From IMG/VR virus record IMGVR_UViG_3300001356_000007, positions 1-35,079 of that record: a stretch of 35,079 nt of DNA; one strand, given 5' to 3'. Shown here one piece after another: positions 1-15,384 of the stretch. The position numbers and the translations under genes are program-made. The stretch comes from a virus. A model generated the notes under the pieces. That model had not been told where the DNA came from, ran no database searches, and saw only the letters and a list, made by a program, of their open reading frames with translations. Each line of letters opens with the position of its first letter. The stretch's first letter is position 1.

Positions 1-275
1 TCGACGCCATGGAGGCGGAATGGACGGCGCTCCCGGCGCCGATCGCCGAGACCACCCCCGCCGTAACCGCGGAAGTGGTCACCATCCCCGTGGTGCATGC
101 GGACGTAAAGAAGGCGCGCTTTCGCCGCGCCCTCGATGTCGAGGGGCGACTGGTGGAAGGGGCTGATGTTTCGGACGAAGACGCGGCGTGGCTGGCCCGA
201 TATCAGGCGCTCCCTGAATACCGGGCGGCGAAGAGCATGTACGACGATTTCGGCGACGAGTGGCTAACCGCGTAA
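1..275 (+). CDS. A: Mu-type transposase A, C-terminal end (partial)
   Basis: This is the 3' end of a DDE transposase of the phage Mu A family, which joins the phage ends to target DNA. The frame is open to the left edge, so the gene begins outside the window and the ATG at 9 is only internal. The visible 90 or so residues contain the typical tail of the family: a basic helix (KKARFRRAL), then an acidic stretch and a block around WLARYQALPEY and MYDDFG. The catalytic DDE core is not in the window. The identification rests on this tail pattern and on the MuB-type ATPase immediately downstream. In Mu the A C-terminus contacts MuB and ClpX; that role here is by analogy. Confidence 0.8.
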   Translation, partial: DAMEAEWTALPAPIAETTPAVTAEVVTIPVVHADVKKARFRRALDVEGRLVEGADVSDEDAAWLARYQALPEYRAAKSMYDDFGDEWLTA

Positions 276-2053: not shown

Positions 2054-2294
2054 AAACATCGCGGCCCTGCGCCAGCACCTTCTGAAATACGCCACCACCG
2101 GCGTAGTGATGGAGCCCACCGCTGTAGCGCGAATCACCGATCTGCTGCTGACGCTGGTTCTTGATGCGGCGGCGCTGGAGCAATCGCTGATTTCGCCGGT
2201 CGCCATGGCGCCCGACCTCCTCCCCGAAAACGTGGTGGTGGTCGATTGGCCGAAGGCTGGGCCGAGGGCTGACCTTCAAGGCGGTGTGGCATGA
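2043..2294 (+). CDS. Small hypothetical phage protein
   Basis: An 83-residue protein, mostly helical in its first two thirds (LRQHLLKY, ITDLLLTLVLDAAALEQSL) and ending in a Pro/Gly-rich tail. The start is the ATG at 2043, chosen because AAGGAGG lies 3 bases upstream in the end of the preceding gene and because it overlaps that gene by 11 bases. An earlier in-frame start at 1908 would bury it in the neighbour. No family was recognised. It overlaps the next gene by 4 bases, so it is probably translationally coupled within the early operon. Confidence 0.55.
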   Translation: MLSENIAALRQHLLKYATTGVVMEPTAVARITDLLLTLVLDAAALEQSLISPVAMAPDLLPENVVVVDWPKAGPRADLQGGVA

Positions 2295-2605
2295 CCGGCC
2301 CGTTGGAACTCGGCCAACCGGTGACTTTTACCGACGGCACCGTTGAGAAATCCGGCATCGTTTCGGTGGTTTGGATGGGCGGGCGCCGCGCCATCGTCGC
2401 AACGCCGGACGGTGAGATGCTGACGTGGAAGGCTGATCAACCCAGCCACCCCAACCTCGCCACCACCGTGACGGTTGATCTCGAAAAAGCCGAGGAGATC
2501 GCCCTGGACACGTTGGCCGGCGATCGCGTCGAAGGATCAGTCACCAGGCAGATGCTGGTGTTGGCTGCCGCCGTCATCGCCTTGCGCGAAGGGAGGGCGC
2601 CATGA
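2291..2605 (+). CDS. Small hypothetical phage protein, SH3-like N-terminus
   Basis: A 104-residue protein. The first half is beta-rich with alternating hydrophobic residues (GQPVTFTDGT, SGIVSVVWMGGRRAIVATPDG) and looks like a small barrel of SH3/KOW character. The second half is helical (LEKAEEIALDTL, RQMLVLAAAVIAL). No named family was recognised. It is linked by ATGA overlaps to both neighbours (2291-2294 and 2602-2605), so it belongs to the same translationally coupled early operon, next to the DnaA-like gene. Confidence 0.55.
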   Translation: MTGPLELGQPVTFTDGTVEKSGIVSVVWMGGRRAIVATPDGEMLTWKADQPSHPNLATTVTVDLEKAEEIALDTLAGDRVEGSVTRQMLVLAAAVIALREGRAP

Positions 2606-3075
2606 CGGAAGCCCGCCATCCTGTCACCATGGCACTGATCAAACAGTGTGTTGCCGCCCATTACCAAGTGACGGTGACCGAGATGGTTAGCCGGCGCCAA
2701 GGGGTGGCCAGCGCGCCTCGCCAAATCGCCATGTATCTGGCTGCGACCCTTTCGGTCCACAGCCTTCCTGAAATCGGCGCGGCCTTTCATCGCGACCATA
2801 CGACCGTCATGTACGCCCGTGACATCGTCAAGACCCGCATGGCAAACAGCAGCATCTTGGCGGCGGATATCCGCAAGCTGAGGGCTGACATCCTCGCTGC
2901 CGCTAATCCACCCAGCCCGAGCGAAACGCTCGCCGTGCGCCTCGTGCTCGACACCGCCGCCGTGTTCCGGACGGCGGGGTTGACCATGGCGGCCTCCGAT
3001 CCTGCCGCTACCATCCATCTGCTCGCCCCGGTCGCCGCCGCCTTTGGCGTGACGCTGCCCAAAGAGGTGACGTGA
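2602..3075 (+). CDS. Stand-alone DnaA domain IV (DnaA-box-binding) protein
   Basis: A 157-residue protein whose first 80 residues match the C-terminal DNA-binding domain of the bacterial initiator DnaA. They include a helix-turn-helix with the signature SRR...PRQIAMYLA at about 30-46, LPEIGAAFHRDHTTVM at about 55-70, and the spacing of the family. Residues matching E. coli Arg399, Arg407, Gln408, Asp433, His434 and Thr435 are present (Arg32, Arg40, Gln41, Asp65, His66, Thr67), so DnaA-box recognition should be intact. The AAA+ ATPase and oligomerisation domains are absent. The last 70 residues are an Ala-rich helical extension not found in DnaA. It may compete with or recruit host replication factors; that is inference. 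Confidence 0.85.
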   Translation: MTEARHPVTMALIKQCVAAHYQVTVTEMVSRRQGVASAPRQIAMYLAATLSVHSLPEIGAAFHRDHTTVMYARDIVKTRMANSSILAADIRKLRADILAAANPPSPSETLAVRLVLDTAAVFRTAGLTMAASDPAATIHLLAPVAAAFGVTLPKEVT

Positions 3076-3191
3076 TGCTGGAGATCCTCTTCATCGCGTG
3101 GCTTTACGTCGCGGCGACGACTCTTCGCCGGCCACGGACGCCATCGCCACCGCCGTTTGTAGACCCATCAAACCCCATTGAAAGGCCCTGA
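3075..3191 (+). CDS. Small putative membrane peptide
   Basis: A 38-residue reading frame starting at the ATG that overlaps the stop of the DnaA-like gene (TGATG at 3073-3077) and ending 1 base before the next ATG at 3193. The first 16 residues are hydrophobic (LEILFIAWLYVAATT), enough for one membrane segment, followed by a basic Arg/Pro-rich tail (LRRPRTPSPPP). The coupling on both sides and the absence of another gene in the gap support translation. No family was recognised. Confidence 0.45.
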   Translation: MLEILFIAWLYVAATTLRRPRTPSPPPFVDPSNPIERP

Positions 3192-3192
3192 A

Positions 3193-3894
3193 ATGACTAT
3201 TCAAGACCACATTGAAGCCATCACCCGGCCATCGGGCCTGGACGGCTGCATCGACGTTCACGGCAAGCTGTACATGCAGTCTGCGGACGGCGGCTTGATG
3301 CCTCTGGAATTGGTCAAGCCCGAGCGGCTTCTGGAAGACCAGATGGTCCGCAAGATCATCGATTTCGCCAAGGAGCTTTCCGCACAGATCGATCGCTTCA
3401 AAGGCCACACCCTCGACGATGCCGCGACCTTCCTATCGTTGCTGGCCGAGAAATACGGGGCGACCCGTCGTGGCGGCAAGAAGGGCAACGTCACCTTCAC
3501 CAGCTATGACGGGCTCCTGCGGTTCGAGGTGCGGATCGCCGAGGCACTGACCTTCGGGCCGGAATTGCAGACGGCCAAGGAGCTGATCGACGAATGCATC
3601 AACGAATGGGCCGCCGATGCCAGCGGCGCGATCCGCATGCTGATCAATGAAGCCTTCCAGGTCGACCAAGCGGGGCGCATCGACCGCAATGCCGTCCTCA
3701 AACTGCGCAATGTCGAGATCGACGACGAACGCTGGCTCCGGGCCATGGAGGCGATCACCGCGTCGATCCGCGTGACCGGCACCAAAACGCAGTTCTATTT
3801 CAAGACACGCACCACCCCCGATTCCGGCTGGCAGAGCATCACCATCGATCTGGCGGCGGCCGAGGCGCCACGGCAATCCAGCGAGGTGCAATGA
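3193..3894 (+). CDS. DUF3164 family phage protein
   Basis: A 233-residue protein of the DUF3164 family, widespread in Mu-like phages in the early region between B and gemA; its function is unknown. Family features visible are the start of the domain around LYMQSADGGLMPLELVKP, the central KYGATRRGGKKGNVTFTSYDG block, AKELIDECINEW, and the C-terminal WLRAMEAITASIRVTGTKT followed by FYFKTR and a final IDLAAAEA. The ATG at 3193 was chosen over an upstream in-frame TTG because it has a GAAAGG ribosome site 7 bases before it. In position it corresponds to the host-interaction genes of Mu, but no activity can be deduced. Confidence 0.85.
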   Translation: MTIQDHIEAITRPSGLDGCIDVHGKLYMQSADGGLMPLELVKPERLLEDQMVRKIIDFAKELSAQIDRFKGHTLDDAATFLSLLAEKYGATRRGGKKGNVTFTSYDGLLRFEVRIAEALTFGPELQTAKELIDECINEWAADASGAIRMLINEAFQVDQAGRIDRNAVLKLRNVEIDDERWLRAMEAITASIRVTGTKTQFYFKTRTTPDSGWQSITIDLAAAEAPRQSSEVQ

Positions 3895-5941: not shown

Positions 5942-6320
5942 CCGTAAGCCCGTCACCCTCGACGATCTGAATCGGGACGAACTGCTGTCTCTCGCTCAGT
6001 CGCATGGCTTGTGGCTGGAGAGCGATCTTGTCTGGGCGCAGTGGATGGTCGCCAGCGCCAGGGCGCTCAAGGCACAGGATGCCGTTGTCACTTTTCTCGG
6101 CCAGATCGGGCCGGCGGCCAAGGCATTCGACGCCGCCCATAAGGAGTTCGATCCGCAGGCGAGCGTTCAAAAAATGGATCGGGCGCTCAAGAAAATCGAG
6201 GTGGCGAGGGCGGAATATCGGCGCGTCGAAGCAGAATATAGCAGGCTCTCCGCTAAGGCTGGCTGGTGCCAGCGCCGGGCAAACCGTCTTTACCGGCTGT
6301 ACGAGGAGTTGCCGCGATGA
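5934..6320 (+). CDS. Hypothetical coiled-coil phage protein
   Basis: A 128-residue basic helical protein. The middle (about 45-110) reads as a long helix with heptad-like spacing (ASVQKMDRALKKIEVARAEYRRVEAEYSRL), so a coiled coil is likely. No family was recognised. It is placed directly before gemA and coupled to it by ATGA overlap (6317-6320), so it is part of the semi-essential early region. Confidence 0.5.
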   Translation: MTDRKPVTLDDLNRDELLSLAQSHGLWLESDLVWAQWMVASARALKAQDAVVTFLGQIGPAAKAFDAAHKEFDPQASVQKMDRALKKIEVARAEYRRVEAEYSRLSAKAGWCQRRANRLYRLYEELPR

Positions 6321-6742
6321 CCGCACCAGCCTCCCGCGCTGCCCTCATTAAAGCCATCCATGCCGCCAAAACCCATGCCGGCATGGATGATGACACCTAT
6401 CGCGACGTGTTGGCCGCCCAAGCCGGCGGCAAGCGATCCTCCAAGGACTGCACCGATGCCCAGTTGCGCCAGGTGCTCGCCCATCTCAACGGCGCCAACA
6501 CCGGATCGGGCTTCCGCCCCAGCAGCCGGCCCGAAGTGCGTCTGATCTATGCGTTGTGGGGTGACCTGAAACAGCGCGAGGTTTTGGACAATCCGAGCAA
6601 GGCCGGCTTGCGCGCCTTCTGCGCCCGCATGGCCAATCTGGGCGCCGATGCCGCGACCGATCCGGAATTTCTGAAGCCCAACCAATGCCGCGTCGTTATC
6701 GAAGGGCTGAAGGCCTGGATCGCCAGGGAGCAATCGAAGTGA
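6317..6742 (+). CDS. gemA: GemA (Mu gp16) regulatory protein
   Basis: A 141-residue protein of the Mu GemA/gp16 family (DUF1018). Visible family features are the N-terminal helix RAALIKAIHAAKTHAGMDDDTYRDVLAA, the GKRSSKDCTDAQLRQVLAHL helix pair, the central SRPEVRLIYALWGDL motif and the C-terminal QCRVVIEGLKAWI helix. In Mu, GemA modulates expression of host genes and DNA supercoiling; the mechanism is not well defined. The start overlaps the upstream stop. The last 34 bases of its coding sequence are repeated, nearly unchanged, at 7209-7242. Confidence 0.9.
   Translation: MTAPASRAALIKAIHAAKTHAGMDDDTYRDVLAAQAGGKRSSKDCTDAQLRQVLAHLNGANTGSGFRPSSRPEVRLIYALWGDLKQREVLDNPSKAGLRAFCARMANLGADAATDPEFLKPNQCRVVIEGLKAWIAREQSK
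6695..6728 (+). repeat. Direct repeat, copy 1 (end of gemA)
   Basis: This 34-base segment encodes VIEGLKAWIAR at the end of GemA. It recurs at 7209-7242 with three or four substitutions and in the same relative reading frame, where it encodes VIEALKAWIAR. The two copies bracket the zinc-ribbon gene and suggest a local duplication. Confidence 0.75.
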
Positions 6743-7155
6743 GCGAAGATCTTCACACCCCTGAAGTCGTGAACTTCCCCATTCAGAAGTCCGCGCAGGA
6801 TAGCACCGGAGAACCGGCAGCCACCGTGACGGTGATCGATTTTTCCAAAGTGCGGTCGGTTCGACGCACGCCTTCGGTTCAGCGTCCATGCTGCAAGCAT
6901 TTCGCTGTTACGGTCGATACGCACAACCGGGAGGTCATCTGCCGTGAGTGTGGCGCGACCATTGATCCCTTCGATTATCTGAGCGGATGGGCCAATAGGG
7001 AAGAAGGGGAAGTCTTGGCCGCCGCCGAACTGCGCAAGGATGCCGAGCGCCTGAAAACCGAGATCGACACCCTCAAGCGCGAGCGGGCGAACGAAAAGTC
7101 CAAGCTCGATCGGATTCTCCTGGCGCAGAACAAGGCACGGAAGGAGGAGTCCTGA
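6739..7155 (+). CDS. Zinc-ribbon and coiled-coil phage protein
   Basis: A 138-residue protein read from GTG 6739, which overlaps the gemA stop (GTGA). The frame is open further left (ATG 6685), so the start is uncertain. A zinc-ribbon is visible: Cys51 and Cys52 with His54, then Cys68 and Cys71 in ICRECG, followed by ATIDPFDYL. The C-terminal third is a charged coiled coil (AAELRKDAERLKTEIDTLKRERANEKSKLD). Proteins with this layout occur near gemA in Mu-like phages; function is unknown. The stop overlaps the next ATG (TGATG). Confidence 0.65.
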   Translation: MSEDLHTPEVVNFPIQKSAQDSTGEPAATVTVIDFSKVRSVRRTPSVQRPCCKHFAVTVDTHNREVICRECGATIDPFDYLSGWANREEGEVLAAAELRKDAERLKTEIDTLKRERANEKSKLDRILLAQNKARKEES

Positions 7156-7253
7156 TGGACGAAATCATCGATATTGAAGGCCTTTTTCTTCCACACCTCC
7201 TCCTTATCGTTATCGAGGCGCTGAAGGCATGGATCGCCAGGGTGGCGGCATGA
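7155..7253 (+). CDS. 32-residue peptide ending in a GemA-like tail
   Basis: A very short frame (MDEIIDIEGLF...) starting at an ATG that overlaps the previous stop, with AAGGAGG 9 bases upstream. It ends by overlap with the start of the Mor-like gene. Its last 13 residues (VIEALKAWIARVA) copy the C-terminus of GemA. It may be a real coupled peptide, or the scar of a partial gemA duplication that keeps translation coupled into the Mor-like gene. Function is unknown. Confidence 0.4.
   Translation: MDEIIDIEGLFLPHLLLIVIEALKAWIARVAA
7209..7242 (+). repeat. Direct repeat, copy 2 (gemA tail duplicate)
   Basis: The second copy of the segment at 6695-6728, within the 32-residue peptide just before the Mor-like gene. 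The differences are at codon third positions and in one Gly-to-Ala change, so the duplication appears to have diverged under coding constraint. Confidence 0.75.
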
Positions 7254-7651
7254 GCACCAAAGTTCCTCCGTTATCCGGCCATCTCGGCGAATTGGTCCGT
7301 CGTGGGCATGGGGGCGCCGCCGTCCGGCTGATATTGGAATGGGGTGGATCGAAGCGATATATTCCGGAGGAACCCCAGCCGAATAGCCCGCTGGTTGCCG
7401 TTGTCGGGATGGCCGCCGCCAACGTTCTGGCCGAACTTTTCGGCGGCAATTATTACGATATTCCGCCCAGGATGGTGCTTGACGGGGAATCACTAAAGCA
7501 GCAAATCCTGAAGGAAGACGGGACCACCAGAGAAGTGGCTCAAAAACTTGGGACCACGGAACGGCATGTGCGAAGAGTACGAAGAGACGGCGGGTGCGAA
7601 CCTCGTTCCAAGCGCCCTGTAGACATCCGTCAACTAGTCATGTTTGATTAG
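7250..7651 (+). CDS. mor: Mor/C-like transcriptional activator
   Basis: A 133-residue protein of the Mu Mor/C activator family. The core shows ILEWGGSKRYIP at about 28-39 (the Gly-Gly-x-x-x-Tyr-Ile-Pro beta turn typical of Mor), a following AELFGGNYYDIPPRM segment, and a C-terminal helix-turn-helix around QQILKEDGTTREVAQKLGTTERHVRRVRRDG. In Mu, Mor binds a dyad as a dimer and activates the middle promoter with sigma-70 RNA polymerase. Here one Mor-like gene stands immediately before the lysis genes, so it probably drives them. The ATG 7250 overlaps the stop of the preceding peptide. The gene ends at a 102-base regulatory strip. Confidence 0.8.
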   Translation: MSTKVPPLSGHLGELVRRGHGGAAVRLILEWGGSKRYIPEEPQPNSPLVAVVGMAAANVLAELFGGNYYDIPPRMVLDGESLKQQILKEDGTTREVAQKLGTTERHVRRVRRDGGCEPRSKRPVDIRQLVMFD

Positions 7652-12732: not shown

Positions 12733-15384
12733 ATGCCTGGTTTAATCGAACGTCTCGCCGTCGCCGGCCGCTACGCCTTTACCGGTCAGGTGCCGGCTGG
12801 CGCCAATTGGTTCGGACCACATGAGCCGCTCCCGCCGATGGCGCCGGAGGCGGTTGCCGGGCGTCGCACGGATTACCGTAGCGGCGTCAATCTTGACAAT
12901 AAGCCGCGCCAGGGCGAGGGAATTGATTTCCAGCAGCTCCGCGCGCTGGCCGACAATTGCGGCATCGTGCGACTGGTGATCGAAACCCGTAAGGATCAGC
13001 TTGGCTGGCGGAAGTTCGATGTTCGACCAAAGGAAGGATCGAGCGCAAAGGCCGATGATCCGGACATCATAATGATCAAGACGGCGCTCGAATATCCCGA
13101 TCGGGAACATGATTGGGAGACCTGGCTCAAGGCGCTTGTCGAAGAGATGCTGGTGATTGATGCGGCGACGATTTATCCGCGTCGCGCCAGAAACGGCAGC
13201 CTTTACAGCTTGGATCTGATCGACGGCGCCACCATCAAATGCATCATCGATCCATGGGGTCGCCGCCCAGTGTTCCCCGATCCTGCCTACCAGCAAGTTC
13301 TTCATGGCCTGCCGGCCATCGATTACACGGCTGACGAACTGCTTTATCTGCCGCGCAACTACCGGACCAACAAGATTTATGGCCTGCCGCCCGTAGAGCA
13401 GATCGTCATCATGATCAACATCGCGCTCCGCCGCGAATGGCATAAGCTTCAGTATTATACCGAGGGCACCGTTCCGGATGCCTTGGCAGGCGTCCCTGGC
13501 GACTGGAACATCAACCAGATATCCGAGTTTCAGGACTATTTCGATACGCTTCTGGAAAACAACACCGCCCAACGGCGCAAGATCCGTTTTGTTCCGGAGA
13601 CGATCGCCAAAGCCTTCATCCAGACGAAAGAAGCGGCGCTGAAGGATGACTTTGATGAATTCCTCGCCCGCTTCGTCTGCTACGCTTTTTCCGTGAGCAG
13701 TCAGTGGGCCGTCAAGATGATGAACCGCTCGACGGCTGAAAGCGCCGCTCAGCAGGCGACCGAAGAAGGTCTCGCCCCTCTCCAATCCTGGGTGAAAAAC
13801 GTCATGACGCGCGTCATCGCGCAGGTGTTTAAACGCCCGGATCTGGAATTTTCCTGGCAGGAGGACACGGCGGTTGATCCGTCCGAGCAATCGAAGATCG
13901 AAGATCTGAACCTCCGGAACGCATCGGCGACAATCAACCAGGTTCGCGCCGCACGTGGCGAAGATCCGGTCGAGTACGGCAATGAACCGCTGATCTATAC
14001 GGCGACCGGCGTGGTTACACTAAAGGACGCTTTAAATCCGCCAGCCCCGCCTTCAAATCCACCCCTCCCTAATGGTGCCGCTCCGCAAAATGAGGGCAAT
14101 CCGCCTCCCGCTAAAGGGAAGATGCAAAAGGCGGCCGGCGACGATCCAGATCAACGTCTGAAGGATTTGTGGACCGCCCATCTCAAGGAGCAAGCCAGCC
14201 GCGTCACCCTCTATTTATCTTCCGACGATGTGGCGGAAGGCCGTCCGGCCGATGCCGATACACTGGCGGCCGGCGCGATCGACGCCTCGGCCACCGCGAC
14301 GGAGCGTCATGTGCTGGTGGAAGAGACGGCCAAGATCCTGCTCGATGCCGGCCAGACCGGAATTGAAGAGGGTGTCGCGGCCCTGGTTGCCGAGACCGGA
14401 AAGGACGGCGCCACAGCCGGAATCGTCATGGGGCCGCAAGAAGCGGTCGAGATTACCAATCTGGCCCACCCGAGCGCGGTCGAGTACGCAACCAGCCGAT
14501 CCGCCAAACTGGTCTCGAACATCGACGAGACCACGAGGGGCTTGTTGCGCGGCCTGATCGCGAAAGCGCAGGAGGAGGGTTGGAGCACCGCGCGGCTCGC
14601 TGATGAGGTTGAGGCCATGGGTGGTTTTGGCCCGGTTCGCGCCGACATGATCGCTCGCACCGAACTGGCCGGCGCATCGATTCGCGGCAACTTGGCATCG
14701 TGGATCACCGCGCGTGACCGCTTCGGGATCAAGATGAAGAAACGGGTGATCTTGGGCATCAACGAGCAGCATTGCGCGGCTTGCGCGGATGCAGTGCGCG
14801 AAGGGCCGATCGACCTGGATGATAGCTGGAACGTCGGTTATGCGCCGCCCTTCCATCCCCGTTGCGGCTGCGACGTGGTGCCGGAGGTTGATGATAGCGA
14901 GGAGGGGCCTCGCGCAACCGGCCCTTTTGACCGGATGGAAAAGGCGTTTGATCCGGATCAGCCGAGGGACACCAACGGTAAATGGTCTGCCGGGGGTTAC
15001 GACGCGGCTGTCGAGATTCTTCGTGGGCAAACGGCCATGCATACCGTCATCGGCGAGCAAAGAGACGTGCCGGCGGCCATGCGGGCTCCCGGCCTTGGCC
15101 CGGTAAGCTTCGTCTGGGGAACCCCTGGCGATCCGGCAAAGGACTTCAAGGGCGGTTTCGGCATCAACCACATCATTGCCAAACGGAACGCCGAGGGGCA
15201 CGACGGTCAGGCGGTGGCTCTGAAAATCCCGGAGATAATCGCCAGGGGCCAGCAACAAAACCCGCGCGGCCCGGTCGGCGGCCGCCGCGTCGATATCGTG
15301 CATGACGGCCACATCGTCGTCCTGTCGCTAAACCGGCACGGCAAAGATGAAGCGTGGGTGCTGAGTGGCTGGAAGAAAGATTGA
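12733..15384 (+). CDS. Portal-MuF-nuclease fusion protein
   Basis: An 883-residue three-part protein. Residues 1 to about 430 form a portal of the Mu gp29/DUF935 type (LADNCGIVRLVIETRKDQLGW; LLYLPRNYRTNKIYGLPPVEQI; DFDEFLARFVCYAFSVS). A Pro-rich linker (about 434-465) leads to a MuF/SPP1 gp7 minor head domain (about 470-720), ending in ARTELAGAS, a Cys pair (CAAC) and FHPRCGCDV at about 706-714. A short FDPDQPRDTNGKWSAGG hinge then leads to about 140 residues with GFGINHIIAKR (His813), PEIIARG and a terminal WVLSGWKKD. That is the pattern of PBECR/barnase-EndoU-like phage nucleases. In most Mu-like phages portal and MuF are separate genes. The stop is followed by 557 bases without a clear gene. 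Confidence 0.85.
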   Translation: MPGLIERLAVAGRYAFTGQVPAGANWFGPHEPLPPMAPEAVAGRRTDYRSGVNLDNKPRQGEGIDFQQLRALADNCGIVRLVIETRKDQLGWRKFDVRPKEGSSAKADDPDIIMIKTALEYPDREHDWETWLKALVEEMLVIDAATIYPRRARNGSLYSLDLIDGATIKCIIDPWGRRPVFPDPAYQQVLHGLPAIDYTADELLYLPRNYRTNKIYGLPPVEQIVIMINIALRREWHKLQYYTEGTVPDALAGVPGDWNINQISEFQDYFDTLLENNTAQRRKIRFVPETIAKAFIQTKEAALKDDFDEFLARFVCYAFSVSSQWAVKMMNRSTAESAAQQATEEGLAPLQSWVKNVMTRVIAQVFKRPDLEFSWQEDTAVDPSEQSKIEDLNLRNASATINQVRAARGEDPVEYGNEPLIYTATGVVTLKDALNPPAPPSNPPLPNGAAPQNEGNPPPAKGKMQKAAGDDPDQRLKDLWTAHLKEQASRVTLYLSSDDVAEGRPADADTLAAGAIDASATATERHVLVEETAKILLDAGQTGIEEGVAALVAETGKDGATAGIVMGPQEAVEITNLAHPSAVEYATSRSAKLVSNIDETTRGLLRGLIAKAQEEGWSTARLADEVEAMGGFGPVRADMIARTELAGASIRGNLASWITARDRFGIKMKKRVILGINEQHCAACADAVREGPIDLDDSWNVGYAPPFHPRCGCDVVPEVDDSEEGPRATGPFDRMEKAFDPDQPRDTNGKWSAGGYDAAVEILRGQTAMHTVIGEQRDVPAAMRAPGLGPVSFVWGTPGDPAKDFKGGFGINHIIAKRNAEGHDGQAVALKIPEIIARGQQQNPRGPVGGRRVDIVHDGHIVVLSLNRHGKDEAWVLSGWKKD

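Follow-up and report, generated by a model that had tools for sequence, protein, structure and literature searches.

Phages are known to interfere with the initiation of host replication by acting on the DnaA protein. YfdR, encoded by the cryptic prophage CPS-53, binds DnaA, and the yfdQRST gene set inhibits initiation (PMC4776307); lambda P is likewise cited in PMC4776307 as a DnaA-binding protein. Proteins consisting of a stand-alone DnaA domain IV (DnaA-IV), the part of DnaA that reads the DnaA box, are already annotated both in phages and in host chromosomes. The literature searched contained no functional study of the phage proteins, which are labelled "DnaA C-terminal", and gave no function for the PRK06030-like family of the hosts. 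Literature searches for this domain in phages, prophages and Mu-like elements, or in connection with GemA, returned no description of such a protein, and none of the phage literature found describes the occupation of sites by a DnaA-reading domain. Two papers that treat alphaproteobacterial (Mu-like) phages make no reference to DnaA in their main text.

Here, we describe a gene of this kind in a window of 35,079 nucleotides, the whole stretch of DNA analyzed, which comes from a virus record of 35,127 bases. The original prediction, made from the sequence alone, was that a transposable phage encodes a free-standing DnaA domain IV without the ATPase.

A stand-alone DnaA domain IV in a Mu-like phage

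The gene lies at 2602–3075 on the plus strand and encodes 157 amino acids from an ATG. PF08299 (Bac_DnaA_C) is the sole Pfam family that hmmscan assigns to the product (E = 9.7e-20, residues 12–73), scoring 70.8 bits where the curated cut-off is 31.5. Among PDB chains, phmmer returned only DnaA, including domain IV of the E. coli protein in complex with a DnaA box (1j1v, 8.9e-13) and the DNA-binding domain of M. tuberculosis DnaA (3pvp, 3.5e-12). An AlphaFold2 model built on 15 family members has a mean pLDDT of 91.7, and its top Foldseek structures are again 3pvp and 1j1v, with target TM-scores of 0.90–0.95 and an rmsd of 1.0–1.1. The DNA-binding domain spans approximately residues 8–97 and is followed by a C-terminal helical hairpin (106–132 and 134–147) that is modeled with confidence. 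Neither an AAA+ domain nor domain I was found in the protein, and the profile of full-length DnaA (TIGR00362) is matched only at positions 343–436, with 75.9 bits against a cut-off of 343.9. These results confirm that the open reading frame is real and encodes a stand-alone DnaA domain IV, as originally predicted. The concern that its helix–turn–helix might not be DnaA-like is answered in silico by the superposition of the model on crystal structures of DnaA domain IV with the DnaA box.

At the positions of R407, Q408, D433, H434 and T435, and also of R432 and T436, the window protein is identical to E. coli DnaA, and the position of K415 is occupied by Ala. The match to R399 is arguable because the basic loop of the window protein is one residue shorter: HMMER aligns R399 to Gln32, whereas MAFFT aligns it to Arg31. 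The list of contacts first drawn up (R399, R407, Q408, D433, H434 and T435) was therefore right for five of six residues, with R399 only possible and alignment-dependent. From the retained contact residues, the protein is predicted to bind DnaA boxes.

The neighborhood resembles the early region of Mu. A C-terminal fragment of a MuA-type transposase (9–275, plus strand, as are all genes listed here) matches the C-terminus of a 774-residue open reading frame from locus L004 (phmmer, E = 7.7e-8), the annotated transposases of Rhodobacter phage RC1 and vB_RhkS_P1, and a mobile element protein of vB_PeaS-P1. It is followed by a MuB-like DNA transposition ATPase (343–1077; phrog_296, 3.6e-60; AAA_22, 4.6e-13) and a winged helix–turn–helix transcriptional regulator of the early operon (1077–1682; phrog_2030, 1.4e-58). 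Downstream of the DnaA-IV gene lie its constant neighbor, which encodes a DUF3164 protein (3193–3894; PF11363, 4e-65), gemA (6317–6742; PF06252, 3.9e-23) and a Mor-type activator of middle or late transcription (7229–7651; PF08765, 7.5e-6; phrog_836, 4.2e-13), followed by Mu Gp27 and a portal gene with a weak Mu F-like region. By this gene content, the phage classifies as a Mu-like transposable phage, in line with the original claim. As the contig opens partway through the transposase gene, neither the left end nor the repressor is seen.

Three further reading frames of the window were noted. The gap that separates the DnaA-IV gene from the DUF3164 gene (3077–3193) is taken up by a 38-codon open reading frame whose product is a short hydrophobic peptide (MLEILFIAWLYVAATTLRR...), and L002, L025 and certain other relatives have short, often hydrophobic reading frames at the equivalent place (loci are given by their L numbers). 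The reading frame directly after gemA (6685–7155) shows a weak zinc-ribbon match below the cut-off (PF08271, 1.3e-3) and matches phrog_1621. The portal gene (12733–15384, 883 amino acids) combines PF04860 and the Mu F-like region with a C-terminal PBECR1 nuclease-like domain (PF18809, 3.4e-9), a toxin-like nuclease fused onto a head protein.

Recurrence and conservation among Mu-like loci

Scans with the DUF3164 protein of the window yielded 74 viral and 80 genomic loci, 150 of which have at least 1.5 kb of sequence upstream of DUF3164 and were counted. A DnaA-IV reading frame is present in 34 of these 150 loci, a proportion that is not the fraction of all Mu-like phages, since the loci were collected by means of the window's own DUF3164. 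In 32 of the 34, the gene lies immediately upstream of DUF3164. Clustering at 95% DNA identity leaves 141 clusters, 32 of them with the gene. The search for stand-alone DnaA-IV genes beside DUF3164 and gemA that had been proposed with the original prediction is thus positive, and it places the gene after the transposition genes and before gemA. Carriage is optional, since most of the sampled Mu-like phages hold other small genes in that slot.

Where the hosts of the carriers are known, nearly all are alphaproteobacterial. The genome-derived carriers have titles that point to Alphaproteobacteria or to Proteobacteria without closer assignment (Rhodopseudomonas, Rhodoplanes, Bosea, Devosia, Pleomorphomonas, Amorphus, Aurantimonas, Roseospira, Rhodospirillales and others), except for L123 from Desulfobulbaceae, a weak member of the 34 (E = 7.5e-5). 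Named phages with the gene are Rhodobacter phage RC1, whose "hypothetical protein" RHWG_00044 matches PF08299 (3.3e-9), carries the signature KDHST and is encoded about 0.9 kb upstream of DUF3164, and Rhodovulum phage RS1, which has an identical copy. RC1 is one of nine phage records examined; among these, the PF08299 profile detected no DnaA-IV in vB_PeaS-P1, vB_ThpS-P1, vB_RhkS_P1, StopSmel or Aussie. The "phage" hits of highest identity, MT838018 and MT835859 (L023 and L024), lie in open frames of 437–492 residues that look like full-length bacterial DnaA; they were excluded as phage evidence, as they are probably bacterial DNA in contaminated, unverified records.

Across the 34 Mu-like members, the residue equivalent to R407 is kept in all, T436 in 29, D433 in 28, H434 in 24, R399 in 23 and T435 in 20 (30 if Ser and Ala are included). 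The readout motif is gone in L032, which has GGPAG instead, and in L054, L103, L109 and L157, all of which occupy the slot upstream of DUF3164. It is also lost in L142, where the gene lies just downstream of DUF3164.

Close pairs show that purifying selection acts on both the DnaA-IV domain and the C-terminal extension, with ratios of approximately 0.1–0.25 in either part (dN/dS of 0.018/0.17 for L037/L166, 0.032/0.18 for L048/L053, 0.038/0.19 for L132/L137 and 0.084/0.37 for L119/L149). In the domain tree, the Mu-like label requires 8 changes, compared with 21.3 after shuffling, and the placement of the window protein is without support; being built on 93 columns only, the tree does not tell whether the Mu-like genes have a single origin.

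The C-terminal module and the adjacent gene

The original prediction had pointed to an Ala-rich C-terminal extension of about 70 residues as a possible effector part. The extension does merit attention; it measures about 60 residues and is more than an Ala-rich tail, forming a helical hairpin in the AlphaFold2 model. By eye, a short extension with an "A..DP"-like motif is common to proteins of the window type (L002, L025, L026, L027, L119, L149 and L173). Longer members have in common a second motif, D.DP..VA.RIL..P.....S..EI.ALA, and several of them a third, AV..AYR.FE..R....ER.A...L..AL..L; the motifs of the longer members matched no Pfam family. The structure model of one long form, L132, is mostly helical, at lower confidence. 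A profile of the C-terminal extension did not detect the extension of the RC1 protein, which looks similar by eye.

Directly upstream of the DnaA-IV gene, a reading frame at 2291–2605 (plus strand) encodes 104 amino acids, the C-terminal 40 of which resemble the module that is fused to DnaA-IV in the long relatives. The match to the C-extension profile is moderate: hhalign gave a score of 21.8 (P = 4.5e-4) with a probability of only 33%, and the best score among 100 column-shuffled decoys was 13.2. Homologues of this reading frame occur in L025, L026, L032, L119 and other loci. Long forms have as their extension a conserved helical module with similarity to the product of 2291–2605. The ATG of the DnaA-IV gene overlaps the TGA that ends at 2605 (ATGA at 2602), so the two genes are probably translationally coupled. 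Some phages have the module fused to DnaA-IV, while others have it in a separate neighboring gene; this arrangement suggests, though it does not prove, that the products of the two genes act together.

Two variations on this arrangement were observed. In two loci (L133:8597–8977 and L100:8452–8805), the place directly upstream of DUF3164 is held by the second-motif module by itself, with no DnaA-IV attached. In a Mu-like locus from Rhodospirillales (L175:1176–2036), DnaA-IV is fused to a CxxC...CxxC zinc-finger-like region instead of the helical module.

DnaA boxes and possible functions

The DnaA box consensus TTWTNCACA is absent from the window, which lacks the left end (0 found, 0.69 expected). 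It occurs once in 383 kb of 31 early regions (4.04 expected) and three times in 432 kb from 11 whole contigs of relatives. The Caulobacter-type box TGATCCACA is at chance frequency, and RC1 has one box-like site. The depletion is without statistical significance, and what these counts exclude is enrichment alone. No cluster of DnaA boxes was found in the window, the 31 early regions or the 11 contigs, and repeats in the early region are not iteron-like. The phage DNA has almost no DnaA boxes, which makes it unlikely that ordinary boxes form an origin or a mark on it, and the early proposal that the protein marks a phage site is less supported. The companion proposal that it brings in DnaB has nothing in its favor, and the DnaB-binding domain I is absent. 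Together with the readout retained in the window protein, the scarcity of boxes points to the host chromosome as the probable target. Of the early proposals, the blocking or titration of host initiation fits best, though it would have to account for the relatives in the slot whose box-reading residues are lost.

We therefore tentatively favor, at less than even confidence, an early DNA-binding decoy that is aimed at host DnaA boxes and interferes with host initiation or with DnaA-regulated genes. The protein would be made early, alongside the transposition genes, and would occupy DnaA boxes on the host chromosome, at oriC and at DnaA-regulated promoters. It would act as a competitive decoy because, without an AAA+ domain, it cannot oligomerize or open DNA. 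Dimerization or an effector contact would come from the C-terminal helical module, possibly aided by the 2291–2605 protein. Host initiation or DnaA-controlled genes would thereby be held back while Mu-type replicative transposition proceeds, a process that in Mu does not need DnaA. Such a decoy is supported by the computed fold, the kept box-reading residues, the gene position, the purifying selection seen in close pairs and the scarcity of boxes in phage DNA. Against it stand the many sampled Mu-like phages that lack the gene and the basic-loop residue missing from the window protein. The main difficulty is posed by the degenerate members in the same slot, since loss of the readout would be incompatible with a decoy that acts through DnaA boxes alone.

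Those degenerate members are better accommodated by a diversified DNA-binding adaptor, which we consider possible but rather doubtful. Here, the DnaA-IV helix–turn–helix was recruited once or several times and its target varies by phage, while the constant function resides in the C-terminal module and its neighbors; the protein would then regulate the early operon or transposition locally, or serve either of them in an architectural role. Such an adaptor agrees with the retention of the C-terminal module where recognition residues have decayed, with the modules that lie upstream of DUF3164 without DnaA-IV, and with the moderate profile match that puts the module into a separate reading frame in the window. 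The RDHTT-type readout of most members, including the window protein, and the invariant R407 would, however, be odd if the target drifted freely. It is improbable that the protein instead binds a phage site and recruits host replication proteins, such as the primosome, to transposition forks. Its gene does sit in the early replication and transposition region, and unrelated phages carry stand-alone DnaA-IV genes within modules for replication or recombination, where the gene follows those for an annealing protein and SSB in L021 and precedes a replisome organizer in L022; but the scarcity of boxes and the missing DnaB-binding domain weigh against recruitment, and the PriA/DnaB/DnaC route by which Mu is known to replicate needs no such protein.

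By analogy with TnsD/TniQ and TnsC, the protein could also hold the MuB-like ATPase at DnaA boxes or at regions under replication and so select transposition targets, which we regard as still more improbable. A DNA-binding domain with a helical extension, in an early cluster shared with MuB about 1.5 kb upstream, is compatible with target selection, which otherwise draws on analogy only. The R. palustris JSC-3b prophage lies several hundred kb from dnaA, by arithmetic on positions only, and speaks against it; prophage left ends for a comparison of insertion sites could not be fixed from pairwise breaks. Finally, carriage by a minority of phages might suggest a functionless remnant of a dnaA gene captured from a host. 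This is very improbable: the gene is intact in about 30 divergent phages, at a fixed position and with its own C-terminal module, and selection in the close pairs contradicts it.

Extending the decoy to the whole family gives a proposal that we hold more tentatively still. Alphaproteobacterial Mu-like phages would have reduced DnaA to its tip plus helical modules, either fused or adjacent as in 2291–2605, creating phage "initiator mimics" that occupy host DnaA boxes and switch initiation or DnaA-regulated genes while leaving the DnaA protein untouched.

Comparison with known systems

The window protein shares with chromosomal DnaA (PF08299; 1j1v, 3pvp) the fold, the RDHTT helix–turn–helix signature, R407/Q408 and approximately 36–39% identity in the domain. 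It differs from chromosomal DnaA in lacking domains I–III with the ATPase, in having its own C-terminal helical extension and in being encoded in a phage operon. Like the phage "DnaA C-terminal" proteins (BFVD; phrog_30669 and phrog_27829), it is short and contains DnaA-IV only. These BFVD relatives, from uncultured Caudovirales, Cellulophaga phi19:1 and phi19:3, and Tenacibaculum Gundel_1, are annotated by similarity, are only 12–32% identical to the window protein and have different extensions.

The chromosomal PRK06030 proteins (NF004686–NF004688, profiles of about 120–150 amino acids) are also stand-alone DnaA-IV domains. The window protein falls below the cut-offs of all three profiles (26.6, 25.2 and 20 bits against 148, 181 and 136, respectively). 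The PRK06030-like host proteins examined differ in carrying RDRTT and form a separate clade (support 100/99), outside of which the window protein lies. Host chromosomes of the same group encode such proteins, with RDRTT in place of RDHTT (L201, L202, L204, L206 and L207).

As far as the literature searched goes, the new features are the recurrent early-operon place, the phage-specific C-terminal modules with their putative partner, the spectrum of recognition residues between fully kept and ruined, and the lack of box clusters in phage DNA. The family lends itself to experiments, as it offers a homologue in RC1 and RS1, natural readouts both intact and ruined, and a swappable C-terminal module, and it would give a testable role to one gene of unassigned function between B and gemA in Mu-like phages. 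In its way of working, the proposed decoy resembles YfdR and lambda P, which represent phage-encoded interference with host initiation. In contrast to these proteins, which bind DnaA itself, the window protein would bind the DNA sites of DnaA, so that, if the proposal is true, a phage copy of DnaA's own DNA-reading domain competes for its sites.
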